34,712 bases of DNA, taken from assembly GCA_013416795.1 (NCBI GenBank), contig RQSC01000015.1:428543-463254 (forward strand). The letters run 5' to 3'. The position numbers and the translations under genes were made by a program. Position 1 is the stretch's first letter, and the number at the start of each line of letters is the position of its first letter. Shown here one piece after another: positions 13,436 to 34,247 of this stretch. Source of the stretch: Prasinococcaceae sp. CCMP 1430 (taxonomy: Eukaryota > Prasinodermophyta > Palmophyllophyceae > Prasinococcales > Prasinococcaceae). The notes beneath the pieces are model-generated. The model was given only the letters and a program-made list of their open reading frames with translations. It was not told the origin of the DNA and made no database searches.

Positions 13436-14824
13436 TTACATTCGCTGCCGCATGTCCTCCACGCCAAGCTTGAGCCACTCCGGCGCGTACGGCCCGAGCG
13501 TCTTGGCATTACGCATGAGCACTTGCTGCAGCTCGTACCACTCATCGGTCCCCGGCATCGCCGTGCGTGAGCCAGCCTGCATGAGCAGCGACGCGTCGCC
13601 GCCGGCCCCGCCGTGCACGAGTCCCTGCGTGTCCACGGCCGCCAGCGCCGCGCCGCCCAATGCCGTGAGCTGCTGCGCCTTTGACGTCTTGACGTACTCG
13701 AAGAAGGCCTTGACTTTGTTGCGGTACGCGGCCTTGGCAAGCTCGTCCGCGTCGAAGTCGATGTGTTCGTTGCAGTCGAGCACCAGCGCGGGGACGTTGT
13801 TCAGCAGGTCGGGAAGAGAGGCGTTGTCGTTCCCGAGGTACAGCACGCTGTCTGCGATGTCCGACGGCAGCCCGCTGTTGCCGGCGCCGAACCCAGCGCC
13901 GGGCGACACGGCGAGGCGCTCGTAGCCCTCGGGCACGCCGCCCGCGGGGAAGAGCACCTGCCTGCGCTCCCGCTCATTCCTCGAGTCCCTGAACCACTCC
14001 TCGTGCTTGTCGTGCAGCCCCTGCAGGTACTCGTGGCTGACTCCCGCCTCCTCGCTGCGGCCGCGGTTGGCCAGGCGCTGCAGGCACGTGTCGGGGTCGG
14101 CGCGGAGGTAGATGAAGGCGTCCGGAACCAGGCCCGGCATGGCCGACACCATCGGGTCGAACCACGAGTCGTAGAGCTCCAGTTCCATCTCGTTCATCCA
14201 TCGCGCCTCGTGCACGGCGCGAACGAAGACCATCCGGTCCGAGAAGACGCTGCGCTCGAGCAGGCGCAGCGGCTTGGCGCTGCTGGCGCGGCTCTTGCTT
14301 TCCTGCAGCGCGCGAGTCACGAAGACGTAGTTCTGAAAGGTGTACGCGTAGCGCTCGGGTTCGTCGTAGAAGGCGTCGAGCATGTTGAACTTGCCCGAGC
14401 CGAGCGCCTGCCAGCTCTCAACGGGCTCGGGCACAATCTGCACGAGCTCCTGCAGCTCCACCTCGTGCCCCTCGAAGATCTTCTTGAGGAAGGTCGTCTT
14501 GCCCACCGAGATGTTGCCCTCTACGGCGAACGTGATGCGATCGGCGGCGGAGATGCCAGCGGAGAGCGTCCCCGCCTTGTCGGCCTCCTCTGCCTTGGAG
14601 GCGATGTACTCGGCAATGTTTCTGCAGTGGGATTTGTGCACGATGCCCACGTCCTCCGTGAGGAAGGACACCATCGTCCTCGTGTTGGCGCCGATCGACG
14701 CGTCCGCGAAGCGCGCCTCGAGCGCTGCGATCGAATCCAGGCCCTTTGCCACCAGCAGGGCCTCGTTCTTAGCGCCAACGCCAGGGATCTTCTTCAGGTC
14801 GGTGGCGCCACTCGCGCCCCCCCT
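13436..14824 (-). CDS. Deoxynucleoside kinase with N-terminal helix-hairpin-helix module (5' end missing)
   Basis: This dCK/dGK-type deoxynucleoside kinase phosphorylates deoxynucleosides for the salvage pathway. Visible motifs, in order: P-loop EGNISVGKTT, substrate-side EPVESWQ, FQNYVFVTR, the ERS motif in LLERSVFSDR, and the Arg-rich lid NRGRSEE followed by HEYLQGLHDKHEEWF. A spacer of about 70 residues with Gly-rich sequence precedes the VLDCNEHIDF strand. Before the kinase lies a helix-hairpin-helix-like unit (LKKIPGVGAKNEALLVAKGL) and a conserved-looking DVGIVHKSHCRNIAEYI segment, so the protein is a fusion. No in-frame ATG precedes this unit; the start is lost in, or beyond, the assembly gap, or upstream of an intron with an acceptor near 14820-14830. 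The C-terminus adds about 70 residues after the kinase fold. Cytosolic, mitochondrial or plastid location cannot be told without the N-terminus. Confidence 0.85.
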   Translation of the reverse strand, partial: RGGASGATDLKKIPGVGAKNEALLVAKGLDSIAALEARFADASIGANTRTMVSFLTEDVGIVHKSHCRNIAEYIASKAEEADKAGTLSAGISAADRITFAVEGNISVGKTTFLKKIFEGHEVELQELVQIVPEPVESWQALGSGKFNMLDAFYDEPERYAYTFQNYVFVTRALQESKSRASSAKPLRLLERSVFSDRMVFVRAVHEARWMNEMELELYDSWFDPMVSAMPGLVPDAFIYLRADPDTCLQRLANRGRSEEAGVSHEYLQGLHDKHEEWFRDSRNERERRQVLFPAGGVPEGYERLAVSPGAGFGAGNSGLPSDIADSVLYLGNDNASLPDLLNNVPALVLDCNEHIDFDADELAKAAYRNKVKAFFEYVKTSKAQQLTALGGAALAAVDTQGLVHGGAGGDASLLMQAGSRTAMPGTDEWYELQQVLMRNAKTLGPYAPEWLKLGVEDMRQRM

Positions 14825-14895
14825 GCTACCACCCGCGCCCGCGGCCGCCCGTGCGCACGCGCGCCGCCGTGTGTGCGTGTGCGCACGCGCGCGCG

Positions 14896-15287
14896 NNNNN
14901 NNNNNNNNNNNNNNNNNNNNNNNNNNNNNNNNNNNNNNNNNNNNNNNNNNNNNNNNNNNNNNNNNNNNNNNNNNNNNNNNNNNNNNNNNNNNNNNNNNNN
15001 NNNNNNNNNNNNNNNNNNNNNNNNNNNNNNNNNNNNNNNNNNNNNNNNNNNNNNNNNNNNNNNNNNNNNNNNNNNNNNNNNNNNNNNNNNNNNNNNNNNN
15101 NNNNNNNNNNNNNNNNNNNNNNNNNNNNNNNNNNNNNNNNNNNNNNNNNNNNNNNNNNNNNNNNNNNNNNNNNNNNNNNNNNNNNNNNNNNNNNNNNNNN
15201 NNNNNNNNNNNNNNNNNNNNNNNNNNNNNNNNNNNNNNNNNNNNNNNNNNNNNNNNNNNNNNNNNNNNNNNNNNNNNNNNNNNNNNN
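14896..15287. other. Assembly gap (392 N)
   Basis: Unknown bases flanked by CG-dinucleotide and GT-rich simple sequence on the left and CG-rich sequence on the right. It probably hides the 5' end of the kinase gene. The flanking composition explains why assembly failed. Confidence 0.99.
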
Positions 15288-15356
15288 GCTGCGGGTCCGT
15301 TCCGGGCCCGGGCGCCGCCGCCGCGCGCGCGCTCGCTCGCGCGCGCGCGCGCAGAT

Positions 15357-15375
15357 TTTTTCACGCCGTGAAAAA
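15357..15375. repeat. Inverted repeat TTTTTCAC-GCC-GTGAAAAA
   Basis: Perfect 8-base arms around a 3-base loop. The right arm (GTGAAAAA) recurs, sometimes altered, in each unit of the A-rich tandem repeat that follows. Confidence 0.8.
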
Positions 15376-15526
15376 GCGCCGCAGCGAACCCGCGGCATCC
15401 GCGCGGCGCCCGAAGGCTCGAATGACACGCGCGCAAATTGGAACCCGTATAGAAGAAATGGATTCAACACGCTGGATTCCATACGGAGGGCGCTCCCAGC
15501 CCCCCCCGGGCCCGCCGTCAACCGCA

Positions 15527-15796
15527 CGACCCCGCCGAATAAAAAAAAAGAAAACGCGCGTAAAATAAAAGAAAAAGAAAAAAAGAAAAAAGAAAAAGAA
15601 AAAAGGGGTGAAAAACCGCTCGACCCCGCCGAATAACAAAGAAGAAAACGCACGCAAAAAAAGAATGAAAAAGAAAAAAGAAAAAGGGCGTGAATAACGC
15701 TCGATCCCCGCCGAACGAAAGGAAGAGAGCGCACGCGAAAATAAAAAACAGAAAAAGAAAAAGAAAACAAGAGGGGGTGAAAATCCGACCGTTCGC
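15527..15796 (+). repeat. Three-copy degenerate tandem repeat, A/G-rich
   Basis: Units start near 15527, 15621 and 15702 (94, 81 and about 95 bases). Each has a CGACCCCGCCGAA-like head, a long run of AAAAG/GAAAA purines, and a GGGGTGAAAAACCGCT-like tail. The purine bias is strongly strand-asymmetric. No coding potential is seen. It may be part of a promoter or a minisatellite. Confidence 0.7.
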
Positions 15797-15944
15797 TCGT
15801 GCGCGCAGGGCGGGGCCGCGGCGCCCCCCCCCCCCTTTTCATTCGGTGGGACGTCGAACCTTTTTCTCTTTTTTTTTCACATGTAAGTTTGACACATAAG
15901 AAACAGTCCAATTCCTCCCTTTTGTCTTTCTCTACCTCTTAAAA

Positions 15945-15971
15945 TCTAGTTTTTGACAAGTTCGTCAACAT
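15945..15971 (+). repeat. Dispersed palindromic motif, copy 1
   Basis: TCTAGTTTTTGAC, then a 6-base spacer, then GTCAACAT; the palindromic core is TTGAC-N6-GTCAA. Same orientation as the copy at 16153-16178. Confidence 0.7.
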
Positions 15972-16152
15972 CGACATTCAGGGGGCGGCGGCGGCTAGGG
16001 GTGGGCGCGTGTGAGGGCGCCCGATGGTTAGGGGGGCGCCATGGATGTTGGGAGAGCGCCTGCAATGCTCGTGGGACAGCCCATGTTTGCATGGGTGCCG
16101 CCAGGCGCTACACGGCGCCGCGGTGTTGTGGACCCAGAACTGTGCATCGAAA

Positions 16153-22436: not shown

Positions 22437-23537
22437 TCAGTCGACGTGGGCACTGAGTGCTTTGATCGCCTGCGTGTTCTTTGCCCTCCGGGCGACATCG
22501 AGCGCGGTCCTGCCTTCTTTGTCGCGCAAGGACGCGTCCGCGCCCGCGTCGAGAAGTGCGTGAATGCAGTCGATGTGCTGGGGCGACGTCTCCTCCGCCG
22601 CGAGGTGCAGGGGCGTTCGGCCGTCGTCGTCCGGGTGATCTTTGTCTGCACCGGCCTCAAGAAGGAGCGCGACGCACTCTCTGTGGCCATTACGTGACGC
22701 CCAATGCAGAGGAGTAAAGCAGAGTTCGTCCTCGGGATCTATGTCCGCGCCCGCACCTATCAGAAGGTTGGCGAATTCGGCCTGGCCGTTTCCCGATGCG
22801 TAATGCAACGGAGTCATGCCCTCTCCGTCTTTCGTGCAAACCGTGGATGCGTCCGCATCGAGCAGCAGCTTGGCGCATGCGACTTGGCCGCCATTTCTCA
22901 TCAATGCCCGATGCAACGGAGTGTAGCCGTATTCGTCCGCGCGATCTGTGGCTGCGCCCTTATCGAGCAGCAGCTTGATGCATTCAGCAGAGCCACATTT
23001 CGATGCCCAATGCAACGGAGTCATGCCACATTCGTCCGCGCAATCCATGGCTGCTGCGTCCGCATCGAGCAGCAGCTTAACGCATGCGGCGTGGCCGCCC
23101 TGCGATGCATAATACAACGGAGTTAGGCCGTCTTTGTCCGCGAGATCTGTGGCTGCGCCCGCCTCGAGCAGGACCTTGACGCATTCGGCTTGGCCACATT
23201 CCGCTGCAAGGGCCAACGCAGTGGCGTGGTATTCTTCATCCACCGTATCCTTGTCGATGCCCGCATCCAGGACGCGGCGGATAACTTCAGCCCGCCCTTT
23301 TATTGCCGCCCACCTCAGGACCTCCTGCAAGTCTCCAAATAGAAGCAGCGCGTCGGCAAACAAGTCCACCTCCCTGCGCGCCGCGTCAACCTCCGCTCGT
23401 GCCGCCTGCACAGCGGCCGCGTTCACGCCGAGCGCCTGCGTGGCGACCAGCAGCGCCTGCCGCGTGCTCTCCGCCTTTGCGGCACCCGCGCCGCCGCTTT
23501 CGCCGCCGCCGCTGCCACCCGCGCGGCCGCCCGCCAT
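22437..23537 (-). CDS. Ankyrin-repeat protein (copy 1 of a tandem pair)
   Basis: 366 residues. After a Gly-rich start comes a helical motif of about 35 residues (ALLVATQALGV ... QAARAEVDAARREVDLF), which is shared with the neighbouring ankyrin gene. Then follow about eight ankyrin repeats (residues about 75-355) of the GMTPLHWASKCGSAECIKLLL type, some with a one- or two-residue insertion. Ankyrin repeats bind partner proteins; no enzymatic domain is present. There are no membrane segments or signal peptide. The stop lies 29 bases from the stop of the convergent coiled-coil gene, so the 3' UTRs must overlap. The promoter side contains the block repeated at 26028-26261. The in-frame Gly-rich start MAGGRAGG is the first ATG. 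Confidence 0.88.
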   Translation of the reverse strand: MAGGRAGGSGGGESGGAGAAKAESTRQALLVATQALGVNAAAVQAARAEVDAARREVDLFADALLLFGDLQEVLRWAAIKGRAEVIRRVLDAGIDKDTVDEEYHATALALAAECGQAECVKVLLEAGAATDLADKDGLTPLYYASQGGHAACVKLLLDADAAAMDCADECGMTPLHWASKCGSAECIKLLLDKGAATDRADEYGYTPLHRALMRNGGQVACAKLLLDADASTVCTKDGEGMTPLHYASGNGQAEFANLLIGAGADIDPEDELCFTPLHWASRNGHRECVALLLEAGADKDHPDDDGRTPLHLAAEETSPQHIDCIHALLDAGADASLRDKEGRTALDVARRAKNTQAIKALSAHVD

Positions 23538-24285: not shown

Positions 24286-25671
24286 TTAGCATCGCGGGCG
24301 CGTGCTTGCTTTGGGCTCCTCGACGGGCTCGGCCCTCTGCGGGGCGCGGGGGGTGGCGTGCTGGCGCAGCAGCGCCGCGGCCTCCTTGTGTCTGGTTAGT
24401 TCAGCCATGTCGAGCGGCGTCCAGCCAAAGTTGTTGCGAGCGGATGCGTCGGCGCCCGCCTCGAGCAGCAGCCGCAGGCAACCAAGGTGTCCAACCTTAG
24501 CCGCACTATGCAGGGGTGTGTCGCCAGCCGTGTCGACCTTATCCTTGTCGGCGCCAGCCTCGAGCAGCAGCTGCAGGCAATCAAGGCTTCCAAAATAAGC
24601 CGCATGATGCAGGGGTGTGTGGCCACCCGTGCCTCCTTTGTTCTTGTCGGTGCCAGCCTCCAGCAGCAGCCGCACGCAATCGAGACGGTCCCGAAAAGCG
24701 GCGTAGTGCAACGCAATTCTGCCAATCCAATCTGCCTTTTCCGTCTCGGCACCCGCCTCGAGCAGCAGCCGCAGGCAGTCTGGCGTATTTCCCTGAGCAG
24801 CTTGATGCAGGGGTGTGCGGCCCACATTGTCGGCCTTGTCCTTGTCGCCGCCGGCCTCGAGCAGCAGCTGCAGGCAATCAAGGCGCCCGTACTCAGCCGC
24901 TTGATGCAGCGGTGTGAGGCCCATCGTGTCTCCTTTGTGCTTGTCGGCGCCAGCCTCCAGCAGCAGCCGCAGGCAGTCGAGACAGCCCCGTGAGGCGGCG
25001 TAGTGCAAGGCAGCGCTGCCATCCAGATCTGCCTTGTCCGTCTCGGCACCCGCCTCGAGCAGCAACTGCAGGCAATCAACGTGCCCGCACTGAGCCGACA
25101 CATGCAACGGTGTCATGCCATTGAAAGTGGCCTTGTCTATGTCGGCCCCGGCCTCGAGCAACAGCCGCAGGCAGTTCATTTGGCCGCCATTAATTGCGTC
25201 CACAAGTGCGCCCGCGTCCACATTCGCGCCTCGCGACAACGCGTGGCGGAGCGCATACTCCGCACCGCATCCCGCGGCACGTCGGAGCAATACGTTCACG
25301 TCCAAAGGTAGCACAATCGATGTGCCAACCGGAGGCTTCCCGTCAGTGAGGAACAGGTCAAGCTCCTCCTTCAAAGCGTCGCGCTCCGCGCGCGCTTTTT
25401 GCACGGCGACGGCGCTGACGCCGCACACCTGCGTCACCAGAAGCAGCGCCCGGCGCGAGCGCTCCGCCGACGCAGAGCGGAGGCCTCCGGAACCACATTT
25501 GCTGCCACCCGTGGCACTGTCAGTGGCGTGGACAGCCGCGCCGGCATTGCAGCCGATCGCTCCGATGCATCCATTGCCGACCCATGTGATCTCCGCCCTC
25601 ATCGCGTCACTGGCTGCACGCGCCTCGCGCACGGCCGCCTCGTTGACGCCGAGCGCCTGGATTGCCAGCAT
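24286..25671 (-). CDS. Ankyrin-repeat protein (copy 2), highly regular repeats
   Basis: 461 residues from ATG 25671. It carries two copies of the helical motif also found in ankyrin gene 1 (MLAIQALGVNEAAV... and LLLVTQVCGVSAVAV...), separated by a Gly/Ser/Cys-rich linker, then nine ankyrin repeats of 33 residues, the first and last degenerate. Repeats 3-5 and 6-8 form a doubled three-repeat block (GAETxKAD ... CLRLLLEA). The C-terminus is Arg/Pro-rich. Comparison with gene 1 suggests an original Gly-rich start at ATG 25744 (MDAGGAGGGG), now out of frame: alignment around 25670-25730 is five bases short relative to gene 1. The N-terminus may thus have been lost by frameshift, or the assembly has an error. 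Open sequence further upstream lacks family resemblance. It is a protein-binding scaffold; partners are unknown. Confidence 0.82.
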   Translation of the reverse strand: MLAIQALGVNEAAVREARAASDAMRAEITWVGNGCIGAIGCNAGAAVHATDSATGGSKCGSGGLRSASAERSRRALLLVTQVCGVSAVAVQKARAERDALKEELDLFLTDGKPPVGTSIVLPLDVNVLLRRAAGCGAEYALRHALSRGANVDAGALVDAINGGQMNCLRLLLEAGADIDKATFNGMTPLHVSAQCGHVDCLQLLLEAGAETDKADLDGSAALHYAASRGCLDCLRLLLEAGADKHKGDTMGLTPLHQAAEYGRLDCLQLLLEAGGDKDKADNVGRTPLHQAAQGNTPDCLRLLLEAGAETEKADWIGRIALHYAAFRDRLDCVRLLLEAGTDKNKGGTGGHTPLHHAAYFGSLDCLQLLLEAGADKDKVDTAGDTPLHSAAKVGHLGCLRLLLEAGADASARNNFGWTPLDMAELTRHKEAAALLRQHATPRAPQRAEPVEEPKASTRPRC

Positions 25672-25744: not shown

Positions 25745-26954
25745 CCCCGCGAGCGCGCTCGTCTCGTCGAGTGCACGCGCGTGAGCTCGTTCAGAGACGC
25801 GGCCACCTCGGGACAGACGTGGGACTCGTGGGCACCCTCGGCTGCCTCTCGCGCGCTGTTTGGCGCCTCCGCCTGCGCGCGCACGCGCGCAAAAAAGCGC
25901 CGCTGTCGCATCGATCGCATCGCATTGCGCGGAAAAAAATACGCATGTCAAAACGCACGCAAAGTTGTGAAAGAAAGAAAGTGAGTGGGCGCACGAAAAA
26001 AGCCCCATCAAAACGAACGAGTGTAACCCATCTTCTGAGCGGAAGTGGAACAGTCGATCGGTCGCGTGCGCCCACCCGATTCCATTCGATTTCCATTCGA
26101 TTTCCGCTAAGTGCGTCGGCGGGCGCGCCCAAAAAAAATGTGTGGGTCAACCTCTTTCCGTACAGTGGATGTTCGTGTGTGTCGAGGGTGAGTGACGTGA
26201 CTGCGATGCGAGGCCGCGGGGAGCCACACCGGGTGGGATGATACCAATGCACGAGGGCTGGAAGGGCTGCTGCTGTCGAGGCCGAACGCGGAAACTGACT
26301 TTCAATCAGATGGGACGGCGACGTCCGATCCGATCAATCCCTCGTTAAGGTGACAGCGGCCGTTTCCGTTTCAGTTTATGTTTCTGTTTCCGGTTTCGGC
26401 GCTCACAGGCGTGCGGGGGGAGGCCCCTGCGCGAGCAGCTGGGGCGTCATTTCGGGACCCCTGCGCCCGCCGTCGACGCCGCCTGCGCGTCCGCGGAGGG
26501 TTCGGGGTGGGCGTCCTTGACGTGGGCCCGCCGAGCGACGGCCGTCGGCGCACGCAATCAACAAAGAGGGCAAGATCGACATCGCCAAAAGGCAAGAACT
26601 TCACCAGGCCGCGGCGATGCTGCGTCACTATGGCGTCTCCGCCGCGCGGGGGCGTCGCTAGAGAGCTCGGACAGGAGAGGAGAGACATGCGTGTGCGCAG
26701 GCAAACGCGCGAGTATACGCACGTGCACACGTACGTGTCTTATAAGTCCTCATCAGTTTCGTCGCGCATTGCTTCTCACACGGCCATGCGATGGAGTGGC
26801 ACGCGCCAACTGCCCTTTCAAGGCGAGACTGATACCCTCTCTGCGCGCGTAATCTCAGCTGGGGCTGAAGCCGTCGTCCCCACCGGCCTCCTTCGGCGAA
26901 TAAGAGGGCCTTCGGAGAGAGAAGATGGGTGATTGGGCACACATAGAGTGCGAG
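25745..26954. other. Intergenic region between ankyrin gene 2 and RPB1 3' end
   Basis: Contains upstream sequence of ankyrin gene 2, the second copy of the promoter-side block (26028-26261), a stub of about 25 bases matching the coiled-coil gene fragment (26262-26286), a motif shared with 23713-23747, and about 600 bases of unassigned sequence. A short frame at 26554-26661 has protein-like composition but no start or partner exon. Confidence 0.5.
26028..26261. repeat. Duplicated promoter-side block, copy 2
   Basis: Second copy of the block at 23780-24005. It has an internal doubling of ATTCCATTCGATTTCC and a shorter middle part. It ends in a stub (to about 26286) of the same coiled-coil gene fragment, after which homology stops. 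Confidence 0.85.
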
Positions 26955-29900
26955 TCAGCGCAGCTCATACACATGCGAGTTTGGACAAGAATGAATCGCT
27001 GTTGGCGCGTAGGTCCACACGCACAGGCTGGCAAAAACGAGCGGCATGAGCGCAACGTACGATGTTGGCGAGTACGAGGGACTCGTGGGCGAGTACGATG
27101 GACTGTGCAGAGAGCACAGCAGCGCGACCGCGGTCGCCAAGGGCGTGCCAGACAAGCCGCCAAGCGTCAGTTGTCAGTCGAGCAGAAAAATCAAAAATCG
27201 AAAACGAAACATGGAAGAGGGTGGCACGAGCGCGCAGCGAGCTCGACGGGGCGCAGTCGCGCGCCACCAACCTTGTCGGCGAGTACGAGGGGCTCGTGGG
27301 TGAGTACGATGGACTGTGCAGAGAGCACAGCAGCGCGACCGCGGTCGCCAAGGGCGTGCCAGACAAGCCGCCAAGCGTCAGTTGTCAGTCGAGCAGAAAA
27401 ATCAAAAATCGAAAACGAAACATGGAAGAGGGTGGCACGAGCGCGCAGCGAGCTCGACGGGGCGCAGTCGCGCGCCACCAACCTCGTCGGCGAGTACGAG
27501 GGGCTCGTGGGCGAGTACGATGGACTGTGCAGAGAGCACAGCAGCGCGACCGCGGTCGCCAAGGGCGTGCCAGACAAGCCGCCAAGCGTCAGTTGTCAGT
27601 CGAGCAGAAAAATCAAAAATCGAAAACGAAACATGGAAGAGGGTGGCACGAGCGCGCAGCGAGCTCGACGGGGCGCAGTCGCGCGCCACCAACCTCGTCG
27701 GCGAGTACGAGGGGCTCGTGGGCGAGTACGATGGACTGTGCAGAGAGCACAGCAGCGCGACCGCGGTCGCCAAGGGCGTGCCAGACAAGCCGCCAAGTGT
27801 CAGTTGTCAGTCGAGCAGAAAAATCAAAAATCGAAAACGAAACAAAAAATCAGCCTCGGAAGGGGGCGGCGCGAGCGCGCAGCGAGCTCGACGGGGCGCA
27901 GTCGCGCGCCACCAACCTTGTCGGCGAGTACGAGGGGCTCGTGGGTGAGTACGATGGACTGTGCAGAGAGCACAGCAGCGCGACCGCGGTCGCCAAGGGC
28001 GTGCCAGACAAGCCGCCAAGTGTCAGTTGTCAGTCGAGCAGAAAAATCAAAAATCGAAAAAGAAACAAAAAATCAACGGAAGAGGGCGGCACGAGCGCGC
28101 AGCGAGCTCGACGGGGCGCAGTCGCGCGCCACCAACCTCGTCGGCGAGTACGAGGGGCTCGTGGGCGAGTACGATGGACTGTGCAGAGAGCACAGCAGCG
28201 CGACCGCGGTCGCCAAGGGCGTGCCAGACAAGCCGCCAAGCGTCAGTTGTCAGTCGAGCAGAAAAATCAAAAATCGAAAACGAAACATGGAAGAGGGTGG
28301 CACGAGCGCGCAGCGAGCTCGACGGGGCGCAGTCGCGCGCCACCAACCTCGTCGGCGAGTACGAGGGGCTCGTGGGCGAGTACGATGGACTGTGCAGAGA
28401 GCACAGCAGCGCGACCGCGGTCGCCAAGGGCGTGCCAGACAAGCCGCCAAGCGTCAGTTGTCAGTCGAGCAGAAAAATCAAAAATCGAAAACGCACGGAC
28501 GGGGGCGGCGCGAGCGCGCAGCGAGCTCGACGGGGCGCAGTCGCGCGCCACCAACCTCGTCGGCGAGTACGAGGGGCTCGTGGGTGAGTACGATGGACTG
28601 TGCAGAGAGCACAGCAGCGCGACCGCGGTCGCCAAGGGCGTGCCAGACAAGCCGCCGAGCGTCAGTTGTCAGCTCAAAAACATTGTGAAACGAAACAACA
28701 AGAATCAATCGCGAACGAGAGCGCGCTCGACGGAGCGCAGGCGCGCGCCACCAACCTCGTCGGAGAGTACCCCGGGCTTCGCGGGGAGCAGAGCATGGCC
28801 GCGGAGGTCGCACAGGGCGAGCCATACAAGGCAGCCGCGCCGCGCGTCACTTGTCAGCAACCAATGAACAATTGTGAAACGAAACAACAAGAATCAATCG
28901 CGAACGAGATCAGCGCGCTCGACGGAGCGCAGGCGCGCGCCACCAACCTCGTCGGAGAGTACCCCGGGCTTCGCGGGGAGCAGAGCATCGCCGCGGAGGT
29001 CGCACAGGACGAGCAATACAAGGCAGCCGCGCCGCGCGTCACTTGTCAGCCGAGCAGCACCAGAAAACAATTGTGAAACGAAACAACAAGAATCAATCGC
29101 GAACGAGGTCCGCGCACACAAGAGCAGCGCGCTCGACGGAGCGCAGGCGCGCGCCATCCACCTTGTTGGCGAAAACCCCGGCGATGTTGGGCTGAACCCC
29201 GGGCTCGGCCCCACTCCGCCCCCACCCCCACCACCGCTCGCCCCGTACGGCGAGAACATGACGCTCCCCAGCCCGCCGCTCCTCAGCGGGCTGCTGCCGT
29301 GCGCCATGGGCGACATGGCCGCCGAGAGCACGGGCGTCCTGCCACCCTCGTTGATCCCGCCCTCCTCTCCCACCGTCGCCAATTCGATCGCGTCCGCCAG
29401 CCCATCCTCCTCGAGCATGATGTCGAACGCCCCGGTGCCCAGCGGCCCGAGCTGGCCGAGCATCACCTGCGCGCTCACCCCCCTCAGGTCGTCCTTTTCA
29501 CTAAACATGGCGGCCTGCATCAGGATATCGACGGTCTCCTCAAAGGAGCACCGCATGAGCGGCCCCGAGTTCAACCGATTGATCCCGTGCCTGCTGATCG
29601 ACATCAGGTGGCCCCTGTACGTCATGACGTCGCACATGATCGCCAGGTGCCTGTAGTTCACGTAGCTCCCGTCGAAGGAGATCACGTTCCTCACCTCGTT
29701 CAGCAGCGCCCCGCGCACGGCCTCCACCCCCAGCACCTCCATCACCTCCACCAAATGGTTGCTTGTCGTCCTGCTCCCATCGACGTCCTCCTCGCTCATC
29801 ACTCTCAGCAAGTTGACCCCCTCCGTGTCCAGCATCCACTCGTTGGCCGTCACGAACCCCGTGTCGGCACTCGGGTCGTGCCTGGTCCGCTTGGTCTCAC

Positions 29901-32900
29901 GAATGAACACCTTCTTGATGTCCGGCACGCCCCGAAGCGCCATCGAGTTCAGCATGTTCATCTCGATCATCTTCAAAAACATGTCGTCCTCGCCGTCGGA
30001 TCCTCCAGAAGAGCCCTTCTCCCCGTCCATGACGTCCTCCATGATCCTGAGCCGCATGACCAGCTTCTCGGCGTTGTCATCGCTGTAAATCACGTTCAGA
30101 TCGTCCCCAAACTCATCGGTGATCTTCCGCGCGACGTCCTCCATCCGCAAGCTCTTGTCCACCATCATCTCGCGGTTCAATTCGATCCTCAGCATCCACG
30201 GACTCGCCCTGTCCAAATCCACCTCCTCATCGGGCATCTCGTGGTACGCCTCCACGAACTCCTTGTCCTCCGCGATCACCGTTCCCCTCACGTCGGGGTC
30301 GTACCAGATCTCAGTCATGGCAGTCACGCTCTTCAGAGTGGTGTACTCCAGCCTGCACTGCACCGCCTTGGCCTCCTCCCTGTCCCTCCCACACCTGTCG
30401 CTCAAGTACACGCTCAAGCTGGGCGTCTTGACCGTCTTGGCAATGTTCATGATCTCCTTCAGCCTGGGCACGCCCAGCGTCACGTTCTTGGCCGACACGC
30501 CCGCGTAGTGGAAGGTGTTCAGCGTCATCTGCGTGGCGGGCTCCCCCACGCTCTGCGCGGCGATCGTGCCGATCATCTCGCCCGGGTGCACCAGGCTCTG
30601 CGCGAAGCGGCTCTCGATTTCACCCAGCACCCAGTCCAGCCCGGCCTCGTTCAGCCGATACCTGCTGCACACCTCTTTGGAACTCAGCGTCATGCGCACG
30701 AAGGCGCCGTACAGCAACGTCGCGTTCCTCTGCGCCTCCTGGGACAGCCCGTCCTCCCCTGGAACCACGACCAATTTCTCGCAAAGCCGCGCGACTTTCT
30801 GCGCCACCTCCGAAGGACAGAGGTCGCTCTTCGGCTTCAGAAGCACCGAGTGCGATCCTTCGCTCTCGACGAACCTCTTCCGCGCGTTCCAGATCAGCCG
30901 GTCCAGGTTCAGCGGCAAGAACACCGAGTCATCGCCCGAGCTCAGCACCTCGCTGCGCAGCACCTGCAGGTCCTCGCGCAGCGCCCTCTCCTCCTCGCTC
31001 AGGATCGCAATCCTTGCGGCGTCCCCCCTCAGGCGCTCGAACACGTCCTTGTCCAAATACTCGCCCGCCTTGTCGACGTCAACGACGTACCGCCGATCGA
31101 AGGCAGCCTTGCCGCTCCTCAGGTTCTTGATCTTCTGCGACTCGATGTGCACGGCGTCCATCCCGTCCTCGCCGTAGAGGAACTGGATCACATCCCCGAG
31201 CGAGTTCCTCACCGTGCCGTCGTACTGCGCGCTCAAGTCCTCCATGGCCTTCACCAGCCTTCTTTGAATATACCCCGTCTCGGCCGTCTTCACGGCCGTG
31301 TCGATGAGGCCCTCGCGGCCGCCCATGGCGTGGAAGAAGAACTCCTGCGGCGTGAGGCCGCGCAGGTAGCTGTTCTCGACGAAACCCCGACTCTCGGGAC
31401 CGAAGTCGTCTTTCGTGAAGTGCGGCAGGGTCCGATCCACAAAGCCGAAGCGAATCCGTTTGCCCTCGACGTTCTGCTGCCCGACGCACGCCGTCACCTG
31501 CGAGATGTTGATGAACGAGCCCTTGCTGCCCGCGTCGACCATCTGCTTCATGTTGTTGAGCTCCCTCAGCGAGCGCTGCGCGCGCTGGCCGGCGTCGTCG
31601 CGCGCCTTGTTGAGCACCTGGTTGACCTTGTTCTCGAAGCTCTCCTGCATCGTCCGCCCGGGCTGCGGCTCGAGCTGCCCGTTCTGCGCCTGCTGGATCA
31701 AGTCCTTCACCTGGCTCTTCGCGTCGGCGATCGTCTCGGTGATCTGCTTCATCGTCGCGTTGTCCGGGATGCCATCCCCGATGCCGATGGAGAAGCCGGT
31801 GTGCAGCAGCCAGTGGTTCACCAGCGTCTGCGTCTGGTTCAGGAAGCTGCGCGTGGCCGCGGGGCCGTGCTCCTGCCAGATGGTGTGCACGAGGCCGCCG
31901 GGCGCCGTCCCCATCGACTTCTTGCACAGCATGCCGTGGAGCAGCTTGCCGCGCTCGATGCGTACCTGCGTGTCCCCGGCCGAGAAGTCCTTGATCTCGC
32001 CCTCCCGGTGCCCCGCGGCGGTGCGAGTCAGGTTGACGTCCGGCAGGAAGAGGTTGAACACCTGCTTGCCGGTCCACAGCGGCCTGGGCTTCAGGATGGC
32101 CGGCACGGGCATCTTGCCCTGGAACTCCTCGGCCCACAGCATGATGTTCATCATGAGGTCCTTCTCAATGAAGCAATCCCTCTTGGTGATGTTGCGGCAC
32201 CCCAGCAGGGTGTCCTGCACGATACCGATGACCGGCTTGTTGCCCTGCGGGCTGACGATGCAGCGCGGCACCATCATCATCTCGCTCACCTCGGCGCGCG
32301 TCTCGAACGTCTGCGGCACGTGCAGGTTCATCTCGTCGCCGTCGAAGTCGGCGTTGTACGGCGAGGTGACCGACAGGTTGAGGCGGAACGTGGAGTAGGG
32401 GAAGATGCGCACCTTGTGCCCCATGATGGACATCTTGTGCAGCGACGGCTGGCGGTTGAAGAGCACCACGTCGCCGTTCTGCAGGTGGCGCTCCACCTTG
32501 AAGCCCACCTCGAGCGCCCGCTCGCTCGGGCCGAGGGCGTAGCGCAGGTCGATGCGCGAGCCGTCGGGGCGGATGATGTAGTTGGCGCCGCGCTCGCCGG
32601 GCGGCGGGTTGGGCCCGTTCTCCACGAGCTGCTGCAGCTTGTCGACGTTGTACGGCGTGACGCACTCCGGCACGGTGAGCGTCTGGGAGATGCTCAGGGG
32701 CACGCCGACCTCGTCGATCGAGATGTTGGGGTCGGCGGTGATGACGGTGCGCGCGGAGAAGTCCACGCGCTTGCCCATCAGGTTGCCGCGGATGCGGCCC
32801 TCCTTGCCCTTGAGGCGCTGGCAGATCGACTTGATGGGCCGGCCCGAGCGCTGCGTGCTCACCGGCACGCCGGGGATGGTGTTGTCCATGTACGTGATCA

Positions 32901-34247
32901 CGTGGTACTGCACGAGCTTGGTGTACTCGGCCAGGATGTGCGCGGGGGCGCCGAGCTCGTCCTGCTGCTTCAGCTTGGCGTTCGCGCGCACGATCTCGCT
33001 CAGCTTGTGCGTGCAGTCGTCCTCCGAGCGCCCGCCGTCCATGGCGACGCTGGGGCGCACCGCCGGCGGCGGCACGGGCATGGCGGTGATCACCATCCAG
33101 TCGGGGCGCGCGAACTCGGGGTCGAGGCCGAGCACGCGCACGTCCTCGTCCGAGATGCGGCGCAGGATCTCGTGCACGCGCTCCGCGCTGAGCTCCATCT
33201 TGCTCTCCTCGGGCGCGATCACGTCGGAGTCCGCGCCTTTCTTGGTCTTGAACTCGGCCATGAAGGTGATGCCGTCCTGCAGGGTGATCTTCGGCTGCAG
33301 CGCGTTGGTCGCCTCCGACACGTCGATGTTCTGGCTAGCCTGCGCGATGCGCGTGAGGCGCTGGAAGCCGTTCTTGATCCTGCGCGCGGCGACCATGCGG
33401 CGGTCGGGCTCGTTGCCGTCCGCGTCCTTCTCCGCACGCAGGCGCAGCTTGGACGTGAAGAAGCACACGCTGCGCAGGACCTTGAGCACGATCTTCACGA
33501 AGTGCGGGTGGAACACCGGCTTGGCGAGGTCGATGTGGCCGAAGTAGCCCGGGCACTCGTTGATGTCGTTGCCGTCCGTCAGGCAGTTGAGCGCCTTGTC
33601 GACGGTGCCCAGGCGCAGGTCATTGACGCCGCCCGCCTTGGGCTTGCCCTTGTCCATCGAGTCGCCGGAGGTGATCTGCGCGACCGAATACCTCCGCTGC
33701 GGGGCGCGCGGCGCGAGCGGACGGCGAGCGCGCGTGCGCGGGGGCGGATGGGCGCACAGGGGTGCGCGCGGGTCGCAGGGCGCCATGCGAGCGCATCATC
33801 ATTAGCGACGACGGGATGCCGATGAGCTCGGCCCAGCTGCCTGCGTCTGGCGTCCGCGCGGGCGCGGGGCGCGCTCCCACAGCCTGGCCGCGACGCGATG
33901 CAACACGGCATGCGCGCCGCGGCAGCGGAGGCTAGGCTGGACGGGCGCGCTCGCGCGCTCGCGCTCGCGGCGCCCACTCTCGCGCGAGCGCATCGCGACG
34001 ACGCGGGCACTGCGACGAGGCGCGTGTGCTGCGGCTCCCGCTGTGCGCGGCGCGGCGCCCCCGCCTCGCTCCGCTAGGGTTGCACCCATGCGCAGGCGCA
34101 AGCGAGGCCTCGCGACGCCACCCGCCGCCACGCCCTGTCGCGCGCACTCACCACCTCCTCGGGCGACAGGATGCCGAACTGCACCGCCTGCACGCGGCGC
34201 AGCTCGCAGCTCGAGTAGTCGAACTTGTCATGGACGGACGACGCCAT
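26955..34247 (-). CDS. RPB1: RNA polymerase II largest subunit RPB1, 12 exons, CTD encoded by micro-exons
   Basis: Catalytic subunit of nuclear RNA polymerase II, 1704 residues. Exons (descending): 34247-34152, 33696-29162, 28968-28948, 28776-28756, 28597-28556, 28389-28348, 28178-28137, 27958-27917, 27735-27694, 27524-27483, 27313-27272, 27102-26955. The sum is 5115 nt, divisible by three. Exon 1 gives MASSVHDKFDYSS and FGILSPEEV; exon 2 resumes RRYSVAQI in phase 0. Exon 2 holds the clamp, LMGKRVDFSARTV, the catalytic loop NADFDGD (about 32335-32356), funnel and bridge helix (GGREGLIDTAVKTAETGYIQRR) and trigger loop (SVGEPATQMTLNTFHYAG). The clamp has lost several zinc ligands. The CTD has 20 heptads: two PGFSPTS, two PGYSPTS, sixteen PSYSPTS, then a 34-residue tail ending HVYELR. 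Introns 2-11 are all phase 2 (AG|T or AG|C, giving Ser). The splice model is read from sequence and not from transcripts. Confidence 0.95.
27103..29162 (-). repeat. Tandem exon-intron repeat array encoding the RPB1 CTD
   Basis: Units of about 192-223 bases (211 most often), each one micro-exon plus one intron. Introns, descending: 28969-29161 (193), 28777-28947 (171), 28598-28755 (158), 28390-28555 (166), 28179-28347 (169), 27959-28136 (178), 27736-27916 (181), 27525-27693 (169), 27314-27482 (169), 27103-27271 (169). The four 169-nt introns look identical by eye. Donors are GTTGGTGGCG, except the first (GTGGATGGCG). Acceptors are CTCTGCACAG in front of 42-nt exons and CCCCGCGAAG in front of 21-nt exons. 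Both intron families share a CTGACAA(C/G)TGACGC element, a possible branch region, and a GCGCC...TCGA donor-side segment. Confidence 0.93.
33697..34151 (-). other. RPB1 intron 1
   Basis: 455 nt, donor GAGGTG|GTGAGT, acceptor CCCCGCAG|CGG, phase 0. It separates the SPEEV motif from the RRYSVAQI segment, which are contiguous in the family. It is Arg/Ala-coding by composition only. Confidence 0.88.

Follow-up and report, generated by a model that had tools for sequence, protein, structure and literature searches.

Predicted tandem micro-exons encoding the heptads of the RPB1 C-terminal domain in Prasinococcaceae sp. CCMP 1430

The RPB1 locus and its surroundings

The window, the whole stretch of 34,712 nucleotides from Prasinococcaceae sp. 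CCMP 1430 that we analyzed, contains a single complete RPB1 gene on its minus strand. All features of the gene are given on that strand and in window positions. The coding part runs from a start codon at 34247 to a stop codon at 26855, and our corrected model, which is predicted from sequence, has 13 exons and a coding sequence of 5,064 nt for a protein of 1,687 residues. Exon 1 (34152-34247, 96 nt) ends at the donor GTG/GTGAGT and is followed by a phase 0 intron (33697-34151, GTGAGT...CCCCGCAG). Exon 2 (29162-33696) is 4,535 nt long and carries the catalytic body undivided. Its product of 1,511 residues contains seven Rpb1 Pfam domains (PF04997, PF00623, PF04983, PF05000, PF04998, PF04992, and PF04990), including Rpb1 domains 6 and 7, and solved fungal and mammalian/animal RPB1 structures match it along its full length. 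On these similarities, the locus is a genuine gene for RPB1, the largest subunit of Pol II, as the first-pass annotation had proposed. There is no N inside the gene.

The assembly consists of 145 contigs totaling 24.5 Mb and represents a small, GC-rich genome (~66% GC in the window). The first-pass annotation had named a second RPB1 locus with a conventional C-terminal domain (CTD) as a finding that would speak against its reading. We searched the 24.5-Mb assembly for a second RPB1 or Pol II body, using PF04998 and a heptad-pair pattern, and found none. Six other PF04998 matches were considered as RPB1 candidates and rejected; they represent Pol III (C107), Pol I (C139), and plastid rpoC genes plus a fragment. 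For the largest subunits of Pol III and Pol I, the match falls within a frame that is open for 1,506 and 2,053 codons, and seven chaperonin-family genes have their domain wholly or nearly wholly within one frame. Because the conserved genes that we sampled are mostly long uninterrupted frames, eleven introns within the 2.3 kb of the CTD stand out. The NGN domain of Spt5 (PF03439), sought across the assembly, was not found and may be split by an intron, located in a gap, or missed.

Several other features of the window and assembly were recorded. A degenerate TTTAGGG telomere-type array at 13-104 lies in the interior of the contig (C52), which points to an interstitial telomere or to scaffolds joined at this place. 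The segment at 14001-16000 is AT-richer (49% GC versus ~66%); it includes a 392-base gap (14896-15287) and an A-rich repeat of 82 bp (15573-15767). Tandem repeats with periods of ~99-102 bp (33-34 codons) lie in open frames at 22699-23195 and 24448-25175, as would be expected of ankyrin-type repeat proteins. Elsewhere in the same nuclear contig, a plastid rpoC2 fragment adjoins a run of N (C52:205168-205269 and around), which is either a plastid insertion or a gap-filling error. Contig C136 (477 kb) carries two different plastid gene sets, with two psaA/psaB pairs, two rpoC sets, and two 16S genes, and one of its PsaB proteins scored best against moss-like chains. The doubled set points to a mixed culture or to scaffolds that were joined. 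The rRNAs recovered from the assembly match bacterial-type (organellar) models. The plastid genes and the TTTAGGG-type repeats suggest that the genome is green-algal.

A CTD divided among predicted micro-exons

The first two heptads of the CTD (SPGFSPT SPGFSPT) form the end of exon 2. The rest of the domain is distributed over ten micro-exons, two of 21 nt and eight of 42 nt, and a short terminal exon. Eleven introns of 151-193 nt interrupt the CTD, all of them in phase 2, as is every micro-exon boundary; introns and micro-exons together span 26855-29162. Exons 3 (28948-28968) and 4 (28756-28776) are 21 nt long and each encode one heptad, SPGYSPT. The eight 42-nt exons each encode SPSYSPT twice: exon 5 (28556-28597), exon 6 (28348-28389), exon 7 (28137-28178), exon 8 (27917-27958), exon 9 (27694-27735), exon 10 (27483-27524), exon 11 (27272-27313), and exon 12 (27061-27102). 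Since the cuts fall at the same heptad site, in phase 2 and inside a Ser codon, every unit contains a symmetric micro-exon. The split codon reads TC+G at the end of exon 12, which closes with ...ACATC/GTACGT, versus AG+T at the other micro-exon ends.

We placed the end of the gene downstream of where it had been drawn. In our model, the stop formerly assigned at 26955 falls inside intron 12 (26910-27060), a phase 2 intron of 151 nt (GTACGT...CCGAAG) with the acceptor CTTCTCTCTCCGAAG, and the last exon had been overlooked. What had been taken for the start of the last exon becomes internal exon 12, which ends at the GTACGT donor. Exon 13 (26855-26909, 55 nt) encodes PSYSPKEAGGDDGFSPS and a stop codon after the split Ser. 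It reads SPSYSPKEAGGDDGFSPS before the stop, that is, a further heptad, SPSYSPK, followed by an acidic tail. An in-frame heptad behind an acceptor of the right phase is very improbable by chance, so we prefer the model in which RPB1 is predicted to end in exon 13 with its stop at 26855.

The predicted CTD has 21 heptads (two SPGFSPT, two SPGYSPT, 16 SPSYSPT, and one SPSYSPK), and their register is unbroken across the eleven predicted junctions, each of which restores a Ser codon. The gene model thus bears out the first-pass description of 21- and 42-nt phase 2 exons that carry exact heptads and rebuild Ser codons. Its totals needed revision: there are ten micro-exons rather than nine, 21 heptads rather than 20, and 5,064 nt of coding sequence rather than 5,115. 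The heptad-pair pattern has eight matches in the whole 24.5-Mb genome, all within the array. A shorter heptad pattern has eight matches in the window and none in dinucleotide-preserving shuffles of it. Heptad pairs with the codon pattern of the array were absent from the prokaryote genome collection, and the search for relatives gave one viral contig only.

The 42-nt exons differ at five single bases (TCG/TCA and ACG/ACA, with AGC/AGT, CCG/CCA, and ACG/ACA in exon 12), and all five differences are synonymous. Of the 126 single-base changes that a unit allows, 34 (27%) are synonymous, which puts the chance of five out of five at ~0.0014 if the events are independent. At the end of exon 12, the double change of AG to TC also leaves Ser in place once the next G is read. 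The only residue changes in the array (Gly/Ser at position 7, Tyr/Phe at position 1, and Lys at the final position 7) distinguish one group of exons from another.

Array introns and tandem repeats

Tandem Repeats Finder reported two arrays in this region, one with a 211-bp unit (27067-28672, 7.5 copies, 95% matches) and one with a 192-bp unit (28653-29115, 2.4 copies, 90% matches). The 211-bp unit corresponds to a 42-nt exon plus an intron of ~169 nt and carries two heptads. The 192-bp unit corresponds to a 21-nt exon plus an intron of ~171 nt and carries one. Introns 2-11, beginning with the first array intron (intron 2, 28969-29161, 193 nt, GTGGAT...CGAAG), are homologous and can be aligned over their full length, with no differences among introns 6, 9, 10, and 11. 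DNA searches of the genome, using as queries one unit and intron 2, found no copies outside the array, and no significant similarity was found between intron 1 and the array introns. Intron 12 shares a 15-bp match with array introns at the offset seen in intron 2 (p ~0.04-0.09 against introns 2-4).

Neighboring exons and introns of the array are homologous, and the symmetric exons hold whole protein repeats, which is the pattern of tandem exon duplication. Because introns 2-11 are mutual copies that were not found anywhere else in the genome, tandem duplication of a unit made of one exon and one intron is the most likely way in which the array grew. An ancestral CTD intron would have been duplicated with its neighboring heptad to yield one-heptad (~192 bp) and two-heptad (211 bp) units, through either unequal recombination or replication-based tandem duplication. 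Exons 8 and 11 carry the same two synonymous variants despite differing introns, exon 11 being flanked by introns of another type. This arrangement suggests recombination or conversion among units.

We also considered whether the region is coding on the plus strand, where frames of 587 aa (26925-28688) and 601 aa (27062-28867) are open. We rejected this reading because a period of 211 bp is not divisible by three. The body of RPB1 is likewise covered by an antisense open frame, of 1,508 aa, and the long antisense frames can therefore be attributed to GC-rich codon use.

Splicing signals

Introns 3-11 share the donor AG/GTTGGT (nine cases), whereas intron 2 has AAG/GTGGAT and intron 12 has ATC/GTACGT. 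We compared these with seven other donors, namely those of RPB1 intron 1 and of six introns that we located by eye in this genome's Ras-family genes. This sample contains GTGCGT, GTGCGC, GTGAGT, and GTACGT, all with a purine at +3, versus T in GTTGGT. The U1 RNA of this genome has the canonical ACUUACCU 5' end, with a score slightly under the Rfam gathering score, and GTTGGT would pair with it with one mismatch (+3) and one wobble (+4). The array donors look usable but weaker than those of this small sample.

A CTGAC branch-like motif occurs once or twice in each array intron (twice in introns 4-11), 68-81 nt before the acceptor. Intron 12 has CTGAC at 49 nt from its acceptor, and the sampled introns, including those of the Ras-family genes, have CTGAC or TTGAC close to their 3' ends. 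The distance from CTGAC to the acceptor in the array exceeds that of most introns that we saw. AG-free stretches before the CTD acceptors are weakly unusual (p 0.02-0.16); we set them aside as proof of splicing, the signal being too weak.

Discussion

The reading that best explains these observations, to which we give a probability of about 0.87, is that this is the only RPB1 found in the assembly, that its CTD array arose by tandem duplication, and that all of its introns would be spliced out to give 21 heptads. The spliceosome would remove all twelve short introns by intron definition, producing an RPB1 of 1,687 residues. Constitutive splicing to one CTD as the main product is our default expectation from the gene model. 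Counting against the preferred reading are T at +3 in the array donors, the greater distance between the branch-like motif and the acceptor, the only weakly unusual AG-free stretches, and the identical adjacent units.

The array may be real DNA whose copy number was misassembled, in which case the true number of micro-exons would be lower or higher. Units 6, 9, and 10 do not differ at any of their 211 bp, and two of them are adjacent. Together with the other assembly flaws, such as the rpoC2 fragment beside a gap in this same contig and the two plastid gene sets of C136, these identical units make the exact copy number uncertain. Against an error of this kind, variants in units 5, 7, 8, 11, and 12 establish how most of the array is ordered, and the gene is free of N. 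We regard a miscounted array as somewhat unlikely, but a possibility to be kept in mind when the figure of 21 heptads is used.

A second alternative holds that the array serves variation, with weak, identical donors and interchangeable acceptors yielding isoforms of 3-21 heptads, perhaps in response to splicing capacity. All micro-exons are multiples of 21 nt and share one phase, so any pairing of donor and acceptor within the array preserves both frame and heptad register, and the first-pass annotation was right that gain, loss, or skipping of units keeps the frame. Each such event would alter the CTD by one or two heptads, within a range of 3 to 21. The nine GTTGGT donors look weaker than the other donors sampled (n=7), which would favor skipping. 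In the gene model, retention of one array intron introduces a stop or frameshift in nearly all cases; skipping would therefore be a mild error and retention a harmful one, leaving skipping as the least damaging mistake. Yet frame-neutral exons follow automatically from duplicating a phase 2 unit, and selection for skipping need not be invoked. In yeast, more than eight heptads are required for viability (PMC5940151), so many skipped forms would be expected to perform poorly and at most part of the 3-21 range would be useful. On balance, we find it unlikely that the array serves variation.

Capping, splicing, and 3'-end formation are all coordinated through the CTD, a tail that contributes to the organization of splicing in every complex cell. 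A cell might contain a mixture of RPB1 molecules whose heptad counts vary through skipping and are set by splicing capacity, with splicing dosing the domain that recruits it; we would put only a small chance on this scenario. CTD length affects growth in yeast (PMC5940151), and the idea that CTD length takes part in a splicing feedback is possible and interesting, though it is conjecture. If the predicted structure is real, no normal CTD can be made unless eleven introns are accurately excised from the message that encodes it. The locus would then be a natural example of a CTD whose length can vary as frame-neutral exons are gained, lost, or skipped, and both the evolution of CTD length and a possible splicing-scaffold loop could be tested within one short stretch.

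Returning to the preferred reading of a fully spliced CTD, we weighed it against the view that the introns remain unspliced, RPB1 stops shortly after exon 2, leaving its CTD truncated, and the array is a decaying minisatellite. The frame continuing from exon 2 does stay open to 28894. A decaying minisatellite would be expected to lose the synonymous-only variation, the register over eleven junctions, and the acidic tail with its stop codon, all of which are present, and a CTD of two heptads would be unusual. This view is very improbable. Hardly any weight falls on repeated insertion of a mobile intron family (introner-like elements) into the CTD, for although introns 2-11 are nearly identical, as recent copies should be, related introns were met only inside the array and not at many loci, and the repeat unit contains the exon, which fits tandem duplication rather than insertion.

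Comparison with known systems

We compared the predicted CTD with those of well-studied RPB1 proteins, which have 26 heptads in yeast, 44 in Drosophila, and 52 in humans (PMC3335468). The protein, the position of the domain, and the heptad are the same, and the similarity extends to first repeats that are degenerate, a last repeat with Lys at position 7, and an acidic terminus. Unlike in the canonical CTD, the coding sequence here is split into ten whole-heptad micro-exons. Changes in yeast CTD length arise by rearrangement within the repetitive coding sequence itself (PMC5940151), whereas the repeating DNA unit here is an exon plus an intron, of 192 or 211 bp. Stiller and Cook 2004 (as cited in PMC3335468) described the heptad pair as the unit in which the CTD functions, and the main type of exon in this array holds exactly two heptads. 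That work, as cited, concerns protein function, and two of our exons hold a single heptad; the match between exon size and functional unit may be a coincidence.

A CTD-like sequence was also seen in an IMG/VR contig, IMGVR_UViG_3300025886_001939 (2-952; 40% GC), which encodes a C-terminal part of RPB1 with a match to the Pfam Rpb1 repeat. This part has about five consecutive YSPTSPC/YSPTSPR heptads in a single unbroken frame and adjoins a BT1-family transporter. The contig possibly comes from a large DNA virus of a protist with a CTD-like polymerase tail, or else from host contamination.

The gene architecture has parallels in other repetitive proteins. Fibrillar collagen genes contain arrays of 45- and 54-bp exons, for which growth by exon addition and unequal recombination has been proposed (PMC4450265). 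As in those genes, a repetitive protein is encoded here by many short exons that each hold a whole number of repeats. The protein is a different one, most of the exons are smaller, and all are in phase 2. The array introns remain nearly identical to each other, and the expansion therefore looks recent or homogenized. Schistosome micro-exon genes encode variable, host-exposed proteins, and their differential splicing has been reported (PMC8293314). They share with this array symmetric micro-exons that can be skipped with the frame kept, but the product here is a core transcription enzyme, and its variation is conjectural. By published size limits for short symmetric exons, all ten micro-exons fall within 51 nt (PMC6600660) and two of ten within 36 bp (PMC8293314). 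We found no CTD micro-exons in the open-access literature that we searched. We provisionally conclude that the array represents a known kind of structure, tandem duplication of symmetric exons as in collagen and micro-exon genes, and that its occurrence in the CTD of RPB1 is new.
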